64,000 nucleotides of DNA from Nodosilinea sp. LEGE 06152 (GTDB taxonomy: Bacteria; Cyanobacteriota; Cyanobacteriia; Phormidesmidales; Phormidesmidaceae): NCBI RefSeq assembly GCF_015207525.1, contig NZ_JADEWR010000004.1, forward strand, positions 225,801-289,800, in the 5' to 3' direction. Below, one piece after another: positions 5,289 through 31,958 of the stretch. Numbering within the stretch: the stretch's first letter is position 1; every line of letters starts with the position of its first letter. Below the pieces are notes generated by a model. The model was not told where the DNA came from, searched no databases, and worked only from the letters and a program-made list of their open reading frames with translations. Position numbers and translations under genes: made by a program.

Positions 5289-6690
5289 ACCAGTCTTCGG
5301 CTTCGCCCCCCACAACCACATTGCGAATCCGGAGACTAGGGCCACCGCAGCCTACGGGTAGCCCATTCTGCCCGCCCTTGCCGCAGCCCCCCGACTCATC
5401 CCAGTAAAAGTCGTCGCCGATCGCCTCGATATCGGCCAGGGTGCGAAACACATTGCCCGACAGGGTAACATCCCGCACGGGTTCGGCGAGCTGCCCATTG
5501 CGAATCATCCAGGCTTCGCCAGCCGTAAAGGTAAACATTTCGCCATTGGTCATACCCTCCAGCCAGTTGCGGGCATAGACCCCTTCTTTAATGTCGGCAA
5601 ACAGGTCATTGACGGGGGTGGTGCCGCGCTCAATCCAGGTGTTGGTCATGCGCACCAGCGGCGAGTAGTGGTAGTTGAGGCAGCGGGCGTTGCCGGTGGG
5701 CTGCTCGCCCAGCTTGCCCGCCGTCTCGCGAGAGTGCAACCGCCCGACCAGCACCCCATCTTGAATCAGCTGGGTGGTGGTAGCAGGGGTGCCTTCGTCG
5801 TCGTAAAAATAGCTGCCGCGATGACCCTCGGGGGCTGCCCCGTCGAAAATTTGCAGACCGCTGGGGCCAAACCGGCGTCCCATGCTCATTGATTCCAGCA
5901 AGTCGGGATTCTCGTAGGCCATATCAGCTTCCGAAAGGTGGCCAAAGGCTTCGTGGACAAACAGCCCGGTCAGAATTGGGTCAATCACTACATTGTAGGT
6001 GCCCCCCCGCACCGAAGGTAGCTCTAGCGCCGCAACAGCCCGCTGGGCTGCCTCCATCACCTGGGTATCCAGATTCTCCAGGTCTTCGTAGGCTTTGCGC
6101 GAACCCGTCGTTTCGCGCCCGGTTTGCACGGTGTCGCCATCGCGGGCGGTGGCGGCAAACCGCATTTCCATATCCGACCAGGCCTGATCGATCAGGGTGC
6201 CTTCGGAGGTGGCCAACAGCACCCGCTGCGCGACATCGGTGTAGCGAACGGAGGTCGTGGCAATGCGATGGTCTACACTCTGGAGCAGGTCGGCGTAGTG
6301 GCTACACAGGGCTTTTTTGCGGGCCAGAGGAATAAAGCGGGGGTCGGTACCCGCCAGGGGTAGGCGACGGGCAACCCGCACCGGGTCGATGGGGGCCAGC
6401 AGGGTTTCATCGTGGCCGACCAGACGAGCCGCAGCTACAGCCGCTTCCACACAGGGGGCCAAGCTCTCCAGATCGTTGAAGCTGGCAAAGCCCCAACCGC
6501 CCCGATAGCAAGCCCGCACATGCCCCCCGATCGCGATCGCCTCGCTGAGGGTCTCAGCCTTTCCGCCCCGCAAAAAGACATCGGTGCCCTCAGACTGCTC
6601 TAGGCGAATCGCCAGGTAGTCTACCTGCACCCCCCAGCGATCGCACAGTTCCTGCATTCGGGTCTTAGCCTGATCAATCGCCTCTGCCAT
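5281..6690 (-). CDS. tldD: TldD/PmbA-family metalloprotease
   Basis: Protein of 469 residues of the TldD family, which with TldE (PmbA) forms a cytoplasmic zinc protease that cleaves unfolded peptides through a tunnel. The zinc motif HEAFGH (HExxxH) is at residues 246-251 and is followed by LSEAD. Later conserved stretches are DDEGTPA and LTSG-like VTLSGNVF, and the C-terminus reads GCGKGGQNGLPV. The presence of the zinc motif marks it as the catalytic TldD partner rather than TldE. No tldE gene is in the window. Length and domain order are normal. Confidence 0.92.
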   Translation of the reverse strand: MAEAIDQAKTRMQELCDRWGVQVDYLAIRLEQSEGTDVFLRGGKAETLSEAIAIGGHVRACYRGGWGFASFNDLESLAPCVEAAVAAARLVGHDETLLAPIDPVRVARRLPLAGTDPRFIPLARKKALCSHYADLLQSVDHRIATTSVRYTDVAQRVLLATSEGTLIDQAWSDMEMRFAATARDGDTVQTGRETTGSRKAYEDLENLDTQVMEAAQRAVAALELPSVRGGTYNVVIDPILTGLFVHEAFGHLSEADMAYENPDLLESMSMGRRFGPSGLQIFDGAAPEGHRGSYFYDDEGTPATTTQLIQDGVLVGRLHSRETAGKLGEQPTGNARCLNYHYSPLVRMTNTWIERGTTPVNDLFADIKEGVYARNWLEGMTNGEMFTFTAGEAWMIRNGQLAEPVRDVTLSGNVFRTLADIEAIGDDFYWDESGGCGKGGQNGLPVGCGGPSLRIRNVVVGGEAEDWYE

Positions 6691-8869: not shown

Positions 8870-9844
8870 CTACAGGCCAGGCTGTTTATCGAGCACTCCC
8901 CGAATGAGTACTTCAGACCTCAAGGTGGGCAACCTGCCAGCCTGTGAAAAGGCACCAAGACCAGAATTTTCAGTACTGGCGTTACCCCGCAAAAACACAA
9001 TTAGCGTTTGGTTGCTGCCGACAGTTAGACTGGGATCGTCGCGGTTAACTTGGGTAGTTCCTTGCCGTACACAAGCGTAGAAGTTATTGGCATTGGCTGG
9101 AGTTTGCAGATAGCCCGTTGGGCACAAGCCGGTAGTGGCTGCGTTTGTATCCGTATTATCGACGAAGTCGGTGAGCACTGACAGGTTGCGGGGGGTAGCC
9201 CCTGTTCCCTTAGTCCACCTATCAAAGGTATTGGTGCTGCCGGTCGGTTCTGTATAGCCAGGCGTAATATTTAGGGTAGATAACCCAGTTGCCGTGTACT
9301 TGGGTAGCTCGTAGCGCACAATTCTAGACTTGCCACCCCAAATGTCGTTCCCAGTATTTTGTTGCTGGGCATAGACCACCAAGGTGTAGTAGCCCTGGCG
9401 AAGCTTTAAGGTGTCGCATTCATTCCGTTTGACCCCCGAAAACGTCGTAGAACAAGCGTTGTTGAAAAAGGTTCTAACGTTTGCATTGTTGGGGTCTAGC
9501 GGATCTAGCCGCCAAAAAGCCAGCACCGGCACTTCACCCGGGTTAGGAAAGTTATCGAGTTGGCCAGTGACAGCATCAGGGGTTGAGTAAATAAATACAG
9601 CCTCCCCCGCATCGCGGGTAATGTAGTCGATCGCGCGACGCATGTCTTGCTGAGTTTGCGTAAGTATCTCTTCACGGCGGTTGATTTTTAGCAGCTCAAC
9701 TACCAGGTACAGCATGGTGCCAACTATCAGCGACCCCACTACGATCGCTACCAGCAGCTCAATCAGGGTAAAGCCACGCTGCCCAGTTCGTTCAGCCCGT
9801 AGTAGCCCAGCAAGCATTAAATTCATAGCGGCTTTTTTAGCCAT
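8870..9844 (-). CDS. hpsC: hormogonium polysaccharide secretion pseudopilin HpsC
   Basis: Pseudopilin of 324 residues. After a leader of about 23 residues comes GQRGFTLIELLVAIVVG, a textbook prepilin cleavage site with the +5 glutamate and hydrophobic helix. The large C-terminal part is rich in N, T and G with a few cysteines and resembles PilW/GspJ-type minor pilins. It lies 38 bases downstream of hpsB and is in the same operon. Predicted to be processed by prepilin peptidase and assembled into the export pseudopilus. The HpsC name is based on order and length. Confidence 0.82.
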   Translation of the reverse strand: MAKKAAMNLMLAGLLRAERTGQRGFTLIELLVAIVVGSLIVGTMLYLVVELLKINRREEILTQTQQDMRRAIDYITRDAGEAVFIYSTPDAVTGQLDNFPNPGEVPVLAFWRLDPLDPNNANVRTFFNNACSTTFSGVKRNECDTLKLRQGYYTLVVYAQQQNTGNDIWGGKSRIVRYELPKYTATGLSTLNITPGYTEPTGSTNTFDRWTKGTGATPRNLSVLTDFVDNTDTNAATTGLCPTGYLQTPANANNFYACVRQGTTQVNRDDPSLTVGSNQTLIVFLRGNASTENSGLGAFSQAGRLPTLRSEVLIRGVLDKQPGL

Positions 9845-9882
9845 AGGGTGTCACCCTCAAAAGACAGTTGTAGATCGCACAA

Positions 9883-10569
9883 TTAGTTGCAACCGGTAGG
9901 TACCGAAGCTGCTGCATTGAGATGCTGAATGTATTGGCAGAGAGAAGTACCCCCCTCACCTACCGTGACATTTGTATAGAGCGCAACTAGCGGGCGACGG
10001 CTCCGCTGCCCTTCGCCACTGACCATGCGTAGAGAAGCAGGATCTTTGGCCAAGCTACCGGTACCATTCAGCACGGCATCGTAGTCGTACACCCGCACGC
10101 CCATGCCAAAGGTGACAGGCACATTGCCCACAAACCTGCCCGGCGTGCGGTAAACCTGCACCGCAAACTGGTTGCCATTGAGCGTCGCTGTGCGGGTTTG
10201 AAAGGCCGTAGTTGGTGCAGTTACAGGGGCACCGTAGTTTGGGCCTGCCACCTCAGCCACTCTACTATCTGGGTTGGCACCTGTAATGGCAACAGCAGGC
10301 GGTAAGTTGCCAATGTTGGCCTCAGACCGTTCGACGAGTAAACGCACCCGATCAATTTCAGACTGAGCCAGCTCTAGGGCCTGCTCGGCCTTCTGGCTTT
10401 GCACCCGAGTAGCTACCGAAATAACTAGGGCAGGAGCAATGGCACTGCTAACCAGGCCCACAATAATAATGGCGACTAGACATTCGATTAGGGTCAAGCC
10501 CTGCTGCCCTTGGGCCGGGGAGCGCCCCCCAGCCCGGTAAAGATAGCGTTTGAGACGATTTGTCATCAC
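9883..10569 (-). CDS. hpsB: hormogonium polysaccharide secretion pseudopilin HpsB
   Basis: Pseudopilin of 228 residues with the prepilin motif GQQGLTLIECLVAIIIVG near residues 22-40, including the +5 glutamate. The N-terminal helix continues with alanines and valines, followed by an amphipathic segment (SQKAEQALELAQSEIDRVR) typical of PilV/GspI-like pilins. It starts 40 bases after the hpsA stop and is the second gene of the operon. The C-terminal cysteine pair (LCQY ... TGCN) may form a disulfide outside the membrane. Confidence 0.83.
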   Translation of the reverse strand: MMTNRLKRYLYRAGGRSPAQGQQGLTLIECLVAIIIVGLVSSAIAPALVISVATRVQSQKAEQALELAQSEIDRVRLLVERSEANIGNLPPAVAITGANPDSRVAEVAGPNYGAPVTAPTTAFQTRTATLNGNQFAVQVYRTPGRFVGNVPVTFGMGVRVYDYDAVLNGTGSLAKDPASLRMVSGEGQRSRRPLVALYTNVTVGEGGTSLCQYIQHLNAAASVPTGCN

Positions 10570-22239: not shown

Positions 22240-22710
22240 TTAGATGGGTTTTGATGTCAGCACCAGCCGCAGCTTGGCGTGAATCAGGTTAAGCTGAGCC
22301 ATGCCTAGGTCAACGTCGCCCTCGACTACAACACCTGTATCCAGCAGGCGATCGAGCAGCTCTAGAATGGTGGGATTTTGGTTTTTGGCCCCAGGGTAGT
22401 AGCTGCCTTCCTTGGGCAGCAGGGTGCCAATTTCCCCCAGGTCGATGTTGAGATCGGCCGGGTCGACATCAAAGATCTCGCACATGTTCACAACCTGCTC
22501 TTCTAGCTTGCGCAGGCTGTCAGCCGCTCGCTCAAGGTCATCATCCCCGAGGTCGCCCGATTCCATCCGGCGAATGACCTGGGCTTCCATGAGCTGGCGC
22601 ACCAGCTCAATCACGGTGAGCAGCAGAGGCGCTAGGCCCGCATCGGTTTTGGCAGGGGGCTGTAGCGCCAGACTGGGCAATAGATCTGGCTCGACATTTT
22701 CGGAGGTCAT
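22240..22710 (-). CDS. gvpK: gas vesicle protein GvpK
   Basis: Gas-vesicle assembly protein of 156 residues. The central region LAPLLLTVIELVRQLMEAQVIRRMESG and the following DLERAADSLRKLEEQV helix match the GvpK family, and the C-terminal part (LLDRLLDTGVVVEGDVDLGMAQLNLIHAKLRLVL) shows the family's GvpA-like motif of a D-x-G-V-V-V-E-G-D type. GvpK is essential for vesicle formation in several systems, but its exact position in assembly is not settled. It is the last gene of the minus-strand gvp operon. Confidence 0.93.
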   Translation of the reverse strand: MTSENVEPDLLPSLALQPPAKTDAGLAPLLLTVIELVRQLMEAQVIRRMESGDLGDDDLERAADSLRKLEEQVVNMCEIFDVDPADLNIDLGEIGTLLPKEGSYYPGAKNQNPTILELLDRLLDTGVVVEGDVDLGMAQLNLIHAKLRLVLTSKPI

Positions 22711-22774: not shown

Positions 22775-22969
22775 CTAGGGTCGATTTTGCCACTGCTGCT
22801 GCAGCCACTGGCGGCGAGCTTCCTGGGCCTGGGTTCGGCTTTGGTGGTAGCCTATACGGCTCGCATCGGTCAGGCGATCGCCCCCGCTCTGGCTGCGGCT
22901 TGGCGCTGAGCGAAAGCTGGGAATTGTGCGGCTACTGGCAATTTGTAGCAGGGTGCGCAGGGTCAGCAT
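22775..22969 (-). CDS. small basic protein between gvpJ and gvpK (possible)
   Basis: Open frame of 64 residues, rich in R, S and Q, located between gvpJ and gvpK on the same strand. Codon third positions are GC-rich like the neighbouring genes, and the C-terminal half (SRTQAQEARRQWLQQQWQ) could form a helix. No obvious ribosome-binding site precedes the ATG and no family is recognised. It is reported because of its operon position, not because of clear coding evidence. Confidence 0.35.
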   Translation of the reverse strand: MLTLRTLLQIASSRTIPSFRSAPSRSQSGGDRLTDASRIGYHQSRTQAQEARRQWLQQQWQNRP

Positions 22970-23063: not shown

Positions 23064-23414
23064 TCAGATAACGGGTTCGGCAGGTCGCAAAGCCTTTAGC
23101 TCGGCTTCTAAGGTCTCTAAGCGGGTTTGAAGCTGTTGATTGGCCTCTAGCAGTTCGTTGGTGCGGCTGCTCAGGTAGGGATCGCTTTCCCACCAGTTGA
23201 TGCCAATTTCGCGGGCCTTGTCGACCGATGAAATAATCAGGCGAATGCGAATGCTCAGTAGTTCGGTAGACCCGACGGAGACTGAGATATCGCCAGCGAT
23301 CACAATGCCTTTGTCGAGCACCCGCTCAATGACATCTACCAGGGAAGATCCCTGGGTAGCGGTAGCCATGCTTCGACCGGGTTGGGGGCGGGTCGTGGGG
23401 GTGGAGGTGGTCAC
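23064..23414 (-). CDS. gvpJ: gas vesicle protein GvpJ
   Basis: Protein of 116 residues. The core DVIERVLDKGIVIAGDISVSVGSTELLSIRIRLIISSVDKA is a GvpA-like shell fold, followed by the GvpJ signature EIGINWWESDPYLS and a coiled-coil-like helix (ELLEANQQLQTRLETLEAELKAL). It lacks the long C-terminal repeat tail of Anabaena GvpJ. GvpJ is a minor, GvpA-related component thought to act at vesicle nucleation or the end caps. It starts 12 bases after gvpN, consistent with a single transcript. Confidence 0.93.
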   Translation of the reverse strand: MTTSTPTTRPQPGRSMATATQGSSLVDVIERVLDKGIVIAGDISVSVGSTELLSIRIRLIISSVDKAREIGINWWESDPYLSSRTNELLEANQQLQTRLETLEAELKALRPAEPVI

Positions 23415-23426
23415 GGCAGATTACCT

Positions 23427-24821
23427 TCAGTTAGAACTTAGCTGATAGCCTGTGAGCTGACCTTCGACCTCGTGCTTCTCAATCAGCGCCTGATCGAGCA
23501 TGGATTTGAGGGCGGTGACAACCTGAAAGCGGGTTAACCCCAGGGCTGCCTCGATGGTAGCGAGAGATGCCGTACCCGTGGCATCGAGATAGTCAAAAAT
23601 GCGGGTTTCAAAGTCGTCGCCAAGGGACGATTCGACCGACGAACTCTCTGTAGTAACCGCAGGTTCAACTTCGGCAGGCCGCTCAATTGTCGCGACGGTC
23701 GGGGTTGCGATCGCAACGTCCGGCTCTGGCTGATTTTGAGTCAGGGTACTCTCACCGGGCTCGGTACTGACCAGGCCGCCTTCAGCAGCGTCTAGGTCTA
23801 CAGCCTCGTTCTCTACCAAATTTTCTAGAGAGGCTTCTAAAGGGGCCGCTGGAGCCTCATGCTCTTCTTCGCCGTGAAGGCGGGCCGCAGGCTGAGTCTC
23901 GGGCTTGAGGGTAAGATCGTTGACCAGTGTGGCCTGGGAGACCACAAAGCGGTTAAACAGGTTCCACAGATGGCGAGTAGCGGCGGGCGCGGGCTCTTTA
24001 GATCGGGCCAGCAAGATGTCGCTGCACACATCGCGGAAGTCGGCGTTTTCGGCCAGGGGCAGAATACCGTGGTCGTGGCAGATGGTGGCAATCATCAGGC
24101 TGGGGCGCAGGCTAGAGACCATGTCGGGCGCTGCCGACGACTGGAAGGCCTTGACCAACTGCACAATTTGCAGAGCGGCGGAGCTATCAATGCCGACCTT
24201 CTGCACCAAAATTTGCTGCTGGGCCAGTTCGTCAGGCTCCGGCATGTTGATGGTAATGAGGCGGTCTTGCAGGGCATCTTGGGTGCCGTGGACGCCGCAG
24301 TACTCTTCGGGGTTAGAGGTGAGAATGGCGCGGAAGTGGGGGCTAACGCGAATGTACTCGGCCCGGTTGTTGCTGGGGGGCAGCACCAGCAGTTTCTCTT
24401 CGAGGGCCGACAGCAGCACGTTGTTGACCTCGGGGCGCGATCGGTTAAACTCGTCATACACCATGGTGAAGCCCTCGCGGCAGGCCAGGGTGAGGCGCGA
24501 GTCAGTCCAGTTCTGGCGCAGCTCGTCCTCCACCTTCATCACGCTGTGAATATAGTTGTCGACCACTTTTTTGCGGGTGTAGCCCGACTGGTTGCCGATC
24601 AGGTCTGAGGTTTTAAACTCGTCATCGCCGAACAGCAGCATGATCGGGCGGGCCAGCAGGTCGGCCAGGTGCAGCGCCAGGGTAGTTTTGCCGGTGCCAG
24701 CGGGGCCTTTGAGGTGAATAGAGTACCCCGACTGCAGGTACCGCAGGGCTCGGAGGGTGGTGCGCTCTAGGGTGGGGGTAGAGACGAAGTTGCGGGGGCG
24801 GGCTTGTAGAACAGTGTTCAC
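23427..24821 (-). CDS. gvpN: gas vesicle AAA ATPase GvpN with C-terminal winged-helix-like extension
   Basis: Protein of 464 residues. Residues 1-300 are a MoxR-like AAA+ ATPase with Walker A GPAGTGKT (39-46), Walker [12 protein letters not shown] (around D123/E124) and sensor-region [17 protein letters not shown], as in classical GvpN. Then comes an acidic, low-complexity linker (about 315-400), followed by a compact 64-residue domain (401-464, encoded by 23430-23621) resembling a winged helix ([19 protein letters not shown]). The linker and extra domain make it much longer than classical GvpN. It uses a GTG start, overlapping the gvpC stop by 4 bases. GvpN is thought to remodel or expand the growing vesicle, partly through GvpC. 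Confidence 0.93.
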
Positions 24822-26038
24822 AGAACGGCTTCCTCTTGAACGAGATAGGTACGGTCTTGCTTGATGACGAGGTCTTTTTGGATCAGCGATCGCAGCGCAT
24901 CCACGGCCTGAAACCGATTGATGCCCAGCTCCGTCTCAATTTCGCTGAGGCGAGCACCCTGGGTCAGATGCAGGTAGTTGTACACCACCTCTTCAAGGGA
25001 AGGGGTTTCGGGGGCAGGGGCTGAAACTGGAACGACAGCGACCGCCGCTGGTGCAGCGGGAGCAGTGACGGTGGCGACAGGCACAGCGCGCGCAGCCGCA
25101 TGGGCGGGGACCGGAGTGGATGGGGCCACCGGGGCCGGAGCTGCAACCGGAGCAGTGGCGACGGTCGGGTTTGACACAGCCGGTTTCGCTATGGGCTTGG
25201 GCGCAGGCTTGGGCGCTGCGATCGCACGGGTCGGCACCGCAGTCACGGCGGGTCGTGTGACCGCGGGACGGGGAGACGGGGTGGCGACGGGCTGAGCGGT
25301 ATTTTTTCCACCCCATACCAGGTGGGAGAGCTGCGCCCGCTGGGCCTGCAGCTGATGGCGAAAGTCAGCCAGTTCATCGAACATGGCATCGACAGAATCG
25401 GTCAGCGCCTGGCGATCGCTCTGGCGGTGCCCCTGGTTAACCACTGCCGCCTGCTGGCGCACTGCGGTCAACTCTTTTAGCGTGGCCTGCACCTGCACCT
25501 GCAGGTCTTCGACGTAGGCCGTCAGCTGGGGTAACAGTTCGGCCCGCACCATCGCCTGCTCCTGGCGGTAGCCCGCTAAATCAACCGCTGTTTTAGCCTG
25601 AATTTCGGCCACCTGCTGCTGCACCTGGCGCAGCTCCTGGGCAATCTCTAAGCGCAGATCGCTCACGGTGTTTTGGAGCACCTGGCAATCGTACTCAAGC
25701 TTTTGCCGCACTTCGGCAGCGCTCAGCTTGCGATCGGCCTGGTAATTGTCTAGCAGCACCTCTGTATCGGCCTGGAGCTGCTGAATGTAGTCTTGGCGGG
25801 CCTGCTGCCGAGGCAAAATCTGGGCCTCGCGGTCTGCGGTAGTTTGGGTTAGCCACAGGGCGGTGTTGGTGCGCAGGTCAGCCATGAGCTGATCGAGGTT
25901 TTGGCGCAGCTGCACAGCATGGACCAGCCGCTCGGCCTGCCAGCGCTCCAGGTCGGTAAAAACCTGGTCACGCCGACTAACTACCTCGCTCTGGCGCAGT
26001 TGTCGTGCGGCTTGCCACTGGTCATAAAGTGCTGTCAC
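24818..26038 (-). CDS. gvpC: GvpC-like gas vesicle protein with C-terminal winged-helix-like domain
   Basis: Protein of 406 residues in the gvpC position between gvpA and gvpN. Residues 1-235 are a charged, Q/R/E-rich helical region with imperfect repeats of about 33 residues; for example, the segments starting [10 protein letters not shown] and [10 protein letters not shown] share spacing with Anabaena GvpC repeats. These bind along the outside of GvpA ribs and stiffen the vesicle. Residues 250-344 are an A/P/V-rich linker. Residues 345-406 (24821-25006) form a winged-helix-like domain similar to the one at the end of GvpN. GTG start at 26038. GvpC identity rests on position and helical repeats, and the extra domain is unusual. 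Confidence 0.82.
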
Positions 26039-26331: not shown

Positions 26332-26550
26332 CTAGGCAGCGGGCACAGCAGCTTGAGCGGTTAGGCCAACGGCCTCGGCGTACTTGAGGTAGGTATCAAC
26401 AGAAGCAATGACGACGCGAGCTTCGATAGCCAGCAGTTCAATACCAACTAGGGAAACACGAACCCAAGCATCAACAACAATGCCTTTGTCCAGAATGCGG
26501 TCAACAACTTCGGCCAAGCTAGAGGAAGAGTTTACTTTTTCAACAGCCAT
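26332..26550 (-). CDS. gvpA: gas vesicle structural protein GvpA
   Basis: Major shell protein of 72 residues that forms the ribs of the hollow, gas-permeable vesicle. The sequence [20 protein letters not shown] and [20 protein letters not shown] is nearly invariant in cyanobacterial GvpA. The length is standard. Only one copy is visible in the window. It is the first gene of the minus-strand gvp operon, with about 260 bases of AT-rich leader and promoter region between it and the divergent TPR gene. A stem-loop follows the stop. Confidence 0.98.
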
Positions 26551-30965: not shown

Positions 30966-31700
30966 ATGGCTGATCGCTACTATCTGTACGGTATTTTTCC
31001 GGCCCCTGGCCCCGCTGAGCTACCCCTAGATGGCTTAGATGAGCAAGCAGTGCAGGCTCAGCAGCTGGATAACTTTACCTTTCTTTATTCTCTTGCCTGC
31101 CAGAAACGCTATCTGTCGAGCCGCAAGAACCTGCTGGGCCACGAAAAAGTGCTGGAAGCTGCCATGGAGCAGGGCCACCGCACGCTGCTGCCGCTCCAGT
31201 TTGGGCTGATTGTCGACAGTTGGGAGCAGGTGCAGAACGATCTGGTCGCCCCCCATGCCGAGGACCTGGCGCAGCTGTTTCAGCGGCTCGATGGCTGCCG
31301 CGAGGTGAGCATTAAAGTGCAGTGGGAGCCATCGACAGAACTCGAAATGATGATGGCCGAAGACGGCACCCTGCGTGCCCAGCGCGACCAGTTGGAGGGC
31401 ACCCAGCTGGGCATGGAGCAGGTGATTTTTATCGGTCAGCAGATTGAAGCGGCGATGGAGGCGCGCAAGCAGGGCATTGTGGAGCAATTTCGCCAGGCTC
31501 TGACCCCGCTGGCCAAGGACGTGCTCGAGAACGCACCCCAGACCGATGTGATGATTTACAACGCGGCCTACCTGATTCCATGGGAGAGCGAAACCGAGTT
31601 TAGCCAGGCCGTCAATGCCATAGACGCTACCTTTGGCGATCGCCTGCGCATTCGCTACAACAACTTTACCGCCCCCTACAACTTCGCCCAGCTCAACTAG
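30966..31700 (+). CDS. gvpF: gas vesicle protein GvpF/GvpL
   Basis: Gas-vesicle accessory protein of 244 residues with the GvpL/GvpF fold. YYLYGIFPAP opens the N-terminal subdomain, HEKVLEAAMEQGHRTLLPLQFGLIVDSWEQV is the family core, and NAAYLIPWESETEFSQAVNAI and RIRYNNFTAPYNFAQL close the C-terminal subdomain. GvpF binds GvpA monomers and is found on the gas-facing side or at the nucleation stage. It is followed by gvpG after 12 bases. This pair is separated by about 4.4 kb from the gvpA operon and is on the opposite strand. Confidence 0.93.
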   Translation: MADRYYLYGIFPAPGPAELPLDGLDEQAVQAQQLDNFTFLYSLACQKRYLSSRKNLLGHEKVLEAAMEQGHRTLLPLQFGLIVDSWEQVQNDLVAPHAEDLAQLFQRLDGCREVSIKVQWEPSTELEMMMAEDGTLRAQRDQLEGTQLGMEQVIFIGQQIEAAMEARKQGIVEQFRQALTPLAKDVLENAPQTDVMIYNAAYLIPWESETEFSQAVNAIDATFGDRLRIRYNNFTAPYNFAQLN

Positions 31701-31712
31701 CTGTCACCCCCT

Positions 31713-31958
31713 ATGCTGCTAAAAGTTCTCTTTGCCCCCGTGCTCGGCCCCATTGAGGGGGTGAGCTGGGTGGCCAACAAACTCCTAGACCAGGCCGATG
31801 TGGCCACCAACGACCTTGAAAGTCTGAAAAAGCAGCTGCTCGCCCTTCAGCTCGCCTTTGATATGGGAGAGATTGCTGAAACAGACTTTGAAATTCAGGA
31901 AGAAGACATTCTCCTCGCCATCCAAGCCATTGAGGATGAAGAAGACGAAGATGAATGA
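31713..31958 (+). CDS. gvpG: gas vesicle protein GvpG
   Basis: Small accessory protein of 81 residues. The N-terminal hydrophobic helix (MLLKVLFAPVLGPIEGVSWVANKLLDQAD) and the helical middle (LESLKKQLLALQLAFDMGEIAETDFEIQEEDIL) match GvpG. The C-terminus is strongly acidic (EDEEDEDE). GvpG works with GvpF/L in the nucleation complex. It is cotranscribed with gvpF and ends a few bases before the tRNA-Gln gene on the other strand. Confidence 0.93.
   Translation: MLLKVLFAPVLGPIEGVSWVANKLLDQADVATNDLESLKKQLLALQLAFDMGEIAETDFEIQEEDILLAIQAIEDEEDEDE

Follow-up and report, generated by a model that had tools for sequence, protein, structure and literature searches.

The window analysed here, that is, the whole stretch of 64,000 nucleotides from Nodosilinea sp. 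LEGE 06152, contains a set of gas vesicle genes read from the reverse strand (−). These include gvpA (26332–26550, −; PRK09371 GvpA, E = 8.9e-41), an ORF of 406 aa located between gvpA and gvpN, and thus at the position of gvpC (24818–26038, −), gvpN itself (464 aa, 23427–24821, −; TIGR02640 over residues 12–273, E = 1.1e-108), a gvpJ-like gene (23064–23414, −; GvpJ model, E = 5.1e-16), and a gene at the gvpK position (22240–22710, −), named after this position and its homologues in other gvp loci, its NCBIfam matches being weak and of the GvpM/GvpA type. A GvpF gene was found on the forward strand (30966–31700, +), with a small ORF then at 31713. The stop of gvpC and the start of gvpN overlap by 4 bases (24818–24821, −; GTGA on the coding strand), and the −3 offset of this overlap recurs in many relatives. 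When GvpN cores were compared, the nearest neighbour was Nodosilinea nodulosa PCC 7104, with 98% identity. In addition, an ORF of 64 aa lies between the gvpJ-like and the gvpK-position genes (22775–22969, −), and, being conserved in 23 other gvp loci, it is probably a genuine small gene of the gvp set, resembling GvpX in its position.

Architecture of GvpN and of the GvpC-Position Protein

The GvpN of the window shares with the GvpNs of gas vesicle clusters (TIGR02640) the full AAA+ core and the operon position gvpA-gvpC-gvpN. It scored well above the equivalog cut-off of this family (362.7 vs. 266.8 bits), and its AAA+ ATPase core (24000–24821, −) also matched PF07728 (AAA_5). It differs from them in carrying an additional acidic linker of about 125 aa (23622–23999, −, limits approximate), followed by a C-terminal winged-helix domain that comprises its last 64 residues (23430–23621, −). 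Among the listed matches to plasmid GvpNs from outside the cyanobacteria (haloarchaea and proteobacteria), the alignment ended near residue 274. A GvpN with the winged-helix extension was also found in Nostoc sphaeroides (NZ_CP031945.1:4799–6025), in a 35.8 kb record listed as a plasmid. Two further relatives presented unusual organizations: a GvpN of 749 aa (L101:6177–8426, +) with a linker of around 400 residues ahead of the winged helix, and a gvpN (L100:1900–3096) apparently frameshifted just upstream of the winged helix and partly continued in another frame.

The GvpC-position protein is made up of an alpha-helical rod (25301–26038, −, limit approximate) ending in the cap motif L-S-H-L-V-W-G, an Ala/Pro/Val-rich linker of about 100 aa (25007–25300, −, limits approximate), and a winged-helix domain of its own, formed by the last 62 residues (24821–25006, −). 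As judged from its sequence, this protein is a divergent GvpC, predicted to bind the shell: its gene sits between gvpA and gvpN, the rod is long, helical, and Gln-rich, and a conserved cap marks the rod end. This cap, L-x3-[VIM]-[WF]-G, was detected before the linker in 56 of 65 relatives (0.1 expected in shuffles), and a similar rod end, of slightly looser pattern, was present in 42 of 47 GvpCs without the domain. The helical rod, the gene position, and the rod end L-x3-[VI]-[WF]-G are common to Anabaena-type GvpC (33-residue repeats, PF01304), from which the protein of the window differs in its largely decayed repeats and in the presence of the Ala/Pro linker and the winged helix. No match to PF01304 was obtained for the window GvpC, and its rod showed no clear 33-residue periodicity. 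Among the relatives, one (L068) passed PF01304 (23.7 vs. 21 bits) and also contains the winged helix, and a period of 33 was seen in another (L064). The winged helix was absent from the 33-residue-repeat GvpCs examined.

The initial annotation had described the linkers as A/P/V-rich in GvpC and acidic in GvpN, and the same composition was found across relatives, with 22% A, 19% P, and 10% V in the GvpC linkers (median length 67.5 aa), and 15% E, 7% D, and a net charge of −0.18 per residue in those of GvpN.

Homology and Fold of the Two Tails

Comparison of both full proteins by BLASTP yielded a sole significant match, gapless, between residues 404–451 of GvpN and 348–395 of GvpC (19 of 48 identical, E = 3e-8). 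This corresponds to the gapless match noticed earlier between the last 64 and 62 residues of the two proteins, segments that proved exact and for which 19 identities in 50 positions had been counted. The HMM-HMM comparison proposed at that stage was carried out on non-redundant tail alignments of 56 GvpN (A1) and 49 GvpC (A2) sequences, giving a probability of 99.85% with E = 1.2e-30 over 60 columns (HHalign). Because of this E value and of the matching AlphaFold models obtained separately, the resemblance is not due to chance, and the tails of GvpN and of the GvpC-position protein are homologous.

The AlphaFold models, for which the tails were run separately, showed the same order of elements in both cases, H1-H2-H3-strand-strand, with a mean pLDDT of 94.5 for GvpN and 93.6 for GvpC. 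Three helices are thus followed by a beta hairpin (wing), as in winged helix-turn-helix domains. The Foldseek neighbours of both tails were solved winged helices (Z-alpha, MarR, IclR, and CzrA, with TM values up to 0.86); none of the matches to solved structures reached E ≤ 0.001 for either tail, as would be expected of a fold so small and common. Pfam matches also corresponded to winged-helix families, with TrmB in first place for 40 of the 49 GvpC and 42 of the 56 GvpN members. In the window itself, the GvpC tail gave sub-threshold TrmB/MarR matches and the GvpN tail MarR/TrmB/Z-alpha-like ones, and the TrmB cut-off (PF01978, 25.6 bits) was missed by the GvpC tail (25.3), the full GvpC (20.8), and GvpN (12.8). 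Z-alpha domains were matched by the GvpN-tail profile at E = 2e-5. The description of these tails as winged-helix-like was thus borne out by the models, the Foldseek neighbours, and the Pfam families. The domain has its fold in common with the TrmB/MarR regulators, which are the best Pfam matches of most tails, and differs from them in that the proteins of the window fall below the curated cut-off and in being fused to gas vesicle proteins. A further likeness was found with the winged helix of RPA32 and archaeal RPA (PF08784; PMC11686378), also a winged helix of small size, flexibly tethered, that recruits partner proteins, primase and PolD in the archaeal case (PMC11686378). In contrast to the domain described here, its role is in DNA replication, and homology between the two is not significant, with weak matches to PF08784 in three of seven GvpC relatives (E 0.008–0.02).

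Within GvpC, conservation is highest in the winged-helix copy, with a mean identity of 53% vs. 33% for the rod. Within GvpN, the mean identity was 34% for the winged-helix copy and 77% for the AAA+ core. Residues R30, L40, and Y53 of the GvpC copy are invariant and E23, Q32, D50, and R51 nearly so, and its helix 3 reads R-F-Q-A-V-D. At the site aligned with Gln32, GvpN copies that have a GvpC partner differ from those that have none (Fisher p 0.03); as the rows share ancestry and the assignment of 3 of the 56 failed the check, this difference is only suggestive.

Nearly all of the structural neighbours (Z-alpha, MarR, TrmB, IclR) are nucleic-acid-binding winged helices, and R/K residues are conserved in H3 and in the short wing. 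Both facts would agree with a binding of the domains to DNA or RNA, such as a gvp promoter or mRNA, through which GvpN and unbound GvpC would control expression or anchor the vesicles at the nucleoid. We regard this as improbable, as the net charge of the domain is near zero for both copies (means of −0.3 and +0.8), helix 2 carries a near-invariant Glu at a site occupied by Ala in the aligned solved regulators of DNA-binding type (1sfx, 1ft9), and the best conserved copy sits on a structural protein, GvpC, that belongs to the vesicle surface. The D/E found midway along the recognition helix in the GvpC copy also speaks against nucleic acids, if weakly, since the TrmB-like 1sfx has a D as well.

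Distribution of the Domain in Cyanobacteria

In a draw of 386 cyanobacterial genomes, GvpN was present in 56. According to a whole-genome search with the GvpC-tail profile (E ≤ 1e-3), 19 of these 56 had the domain in both proteins, 7 in GvpN only, none in GvpC only, and 30 in neither; the GvpC copy was therefore accompanied by the GvpN copy in 19 of 19 randomly drawn genomes. No third protein with the domain was detected in the 56 GvpN genomes at E ≤ 1e-3. Over the 386 genomes, with the best 16 candidates per genome scored, all of the 43 matches at E ≤ 1e-8 (23 genomes) were located at GvpN or GvpC, and a whole-genome search of the Nodosilinea genome itself found the domain at two places only, GvpN and GvpC. 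The winged-helix domain is gas-vesicle-specific, and the restriction of the duplicated module to these two proteins held in the genomes surveyed. The initial annotation had proposed a survey of other gvp clusters, naming unrelated folds or an extension of one protein with no correlated presence in the other as the outcomes against it; the folds were alike and the presence of the domain in GvpN and GvpC was correlated.

A broader set of 131 GvpN rows (the draw plus named loci), biased towards the GvpN of the window, contained 66 rows with both copies, 14 with the GvpN copy only, 6 with the GvpC copy only, 31 with neither, and 14 uncalled. Iterated profile searches on the fetched loci identified the domain in 94 of 138 GvpN ORFs and in around 66 GvpC-position ORFs. 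Two gvp clusters were present in genome G262, the first with both copies and the second with the GvpN copy only. In clusters with neither copy, GvpC was of the 33-residue-repeat type, of a type ending in the module KIEQFVVDYVAQLSTNSSLLEVVNDRDTVRDLLAQGANTLKVDPSDILNTLLQMAEG, or one of other short GvpCs.

Rearranged Nostoc clusters kept both copies, with gvpC about 5 kb from gvpN. The possibility of a third gvp gene with the domain in Nostoc was rejected, as the extra matches (L158 and others) corresponded to GvpC itself, encoded there some 5 kb downstream of gvpN. In loci L117, L118, L126, L134, L139, and L140, the winged helix of GvpC was kept and GvpN ended in a linker-like tail without the domain, constituting natural deletions. 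Locus L050 contained two very similar gvpN genes around 3 kb apart (5363–6298 and 9382–10317, −), without winged helix or recognisable GvpC nearby.

Evolution of the Two Copies

An old duplication of a winged-helix module had been proposed from the sequence of the window. Besides the HHalign result, when the GvpC copies were held as one clade in the domain tree, the likelihood was above that of the free tree (AU p 0.77, a test that does not reject this clade, though it is no proof of one). The two copies are homologous and the GvpC clade is tenable, which makes a single old duplication the likely origin of both. Recent gene conversion homogenising the copies was unsupported, as GvpN and GvpC copies are largely separate in the tree.

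On the GvpN-core tree, 4 changes were needed for the GvpC copy and 15 for the GvpN copy. Independence was beaten by a model that lets the loss rate of the GvpN copy vary with the presence of the GvpC copy (LR 18.7, 1 df, random draw; 18.3 for all rows), with fitted loss rates per unit branch of about 6 without the GvpC copy vs. about 0 with it (0.5 with it for all rows). This faster loss suggests that retention of the domain by GvpN is tied to its presence on GvpC. The test is supportive, has little replication, and is not decisive, because most losses occurred in one clade of 37 rows without GvpC copy; in an independent-pairs test, too, the independent changes in GvpC state were too few. The mirror-tree signal between the two domains was positive (partial r 0.23) but unspecific, and was not used as evidence because the GvpN copy gave a higher value (0.30) when paired with the rod of GvpC.

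These data bear on two further explanations. The first is that the tails are independent and without common function, either as homodimerisers of GvpN hexamers or GvpC rods or as nearly neutral sequences, their co-occurrence reflecting shared ancestry. The variable GvpN copy, lost many times over the tree, and the unspecific mirror-tree signal would be expected in such a case, whereas the strong conservation of the GvpC copy, the exclusivity of the domain to two proteins, and the dependence of its loss make it highly improbable. The second is that both domains bind one third partner (GvpA, GvpF, GvpJ, or GvpK, for example), for which GvpN and GvpC would compete or be co-recruited without contact. 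A single ligand for two homologous domains would come as no surprise, and in some lineages whose GvpC is without the domain GvpN has kept its copy, in many cases with the helix-3 motif degraded. This persistence would be expected if that copy had another ligand, and it agrees with a shared third partner no less than with direct coupling. Against it stands the much faster loss of the GvpN copy where the GvpC copy is absent, and we consider it rather unlikely.

A Putative Docking Module in Vesicle Growth

In delta-gvpN mutants, bicones fail to elongate, GvpN being needed for vesicle elongation (PMC11445434), and GvpC is described as a rod that spirals round the shell (PMC10185304). In Halobacterium, GvpN binds a C-terminal fragment of GvpC through which GvpC also associates with itself, and the GvpC recovered in GvpN pulldowns is monomeric, so that GvpN of haloarchaea appears to interfere with GvpC dimerisation (PMC9372576). 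The haloarchaeal GvpC also consists of a rod with a globular end, in that case one that binds GvpN and mediates self-association (PMC9372576); this end is unrelated to the domain described here and has a zinc-finger motif, and a winged helix is not reported there.

The presence of the same domain on flexible arms of GvpN and GvpC, and its absence elsewhere, suggests docking during vesicle growth. The homology, common fold, exclusivity, and correlated gain and loss of the copies are observed, and from them we infer that the winged helices may provide binding surfaces, with a putative role in bringing the two proteins together. The interpretation we lean towards, with some confidence, is that this winged helix, which is specific to gas vesicles, serves in protein docking instead of DNA binding, like the partner-recruiting winged helix of archaeal RPA (PMC11686378), and would connect GvpN, the AAA+ ATPase, with the outer brace either directly or through a shared partner. 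The helical rod of GvpC would lie on the GvpA ribs with its winged helix hanging off the flexible arm, and the AAA+ core of GvpN would bear the sister domain on its acidic arm. By pairing with each other or by meeting on a common partner, the sister domains would then bring the ATPase to the GvpC-coated ribs, where GvpN could place GvpC, or keep GvpC molecules apart, while GvpA inserts and the vesicle elongates. Against this reading stand the 7 of 56 genomes with the domain on GvpN only, the 6 loci of the broader set with it on GvpC only, and the nucleic-acid-binding character of nearly all structural neighbours. In a more specific form, which we put forward only tentatively, the sister winged helices would form a dedicated heterotypic adaptor, confined to the gas vesicles of cyanobacteria, by which the AAA+ assembly of GvpN is docked on GvpC and ATP-driven elongation is coupled to the brace; the GvpN copy may also act as a competitor of GvpC-GvpC pairing mediated by this domain. 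By analogy, the winged-helix pair of this cyanobacterial group might do the job of the haloarchaeal zinc-finger end, namely the GvpN-GvpC link during elongation.

In the open-access literature, we found no description of a winged helix on GvpN and GvpC, and the consulted part of a study on the GvpN of PCC 7120 mentions only the N-terminal AAA domain (PMC7204071). The shared domain is apparently undescribed before. It bears on how GvpN drives elongation and contacts the shell and, as a vesicle-specific, well-folded small domain common to both proteins, it offers a defined candidate surface of contact, suited to mutation or to separate expression. Should it work as a docking module, it would be a natural handle for cargo or for the ATPase on imaging gas vesicles. 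Cyanobacterial GvpC is also more than a set of 33-residue repeats, as about one third of the drawn GvpN genomes (19/56) have a globular C-terminal domain on it.

Finally, a different conserved C-terminal module of about 60 aa, KIEQFVVDYVAQLSTNSSLLEVVNDRDTVRDLLAQGANTLKVDPSDILNTLLQMAEG, was found on the GvpCs of L052:4517–5620 (+), L053:5153–6115 (+), L056:6791–7933 (−), L054:6138–7178 (−), and L055:6583–7608 (−). It belongs to two other cyanobacterial genera, with one copy per genome, and the GvpN there has no extension. Counting the haloarchaeal zinc-finger end, at least three C-terminal modules, apparently unrelated to one another, occur on GvpC across lineages.
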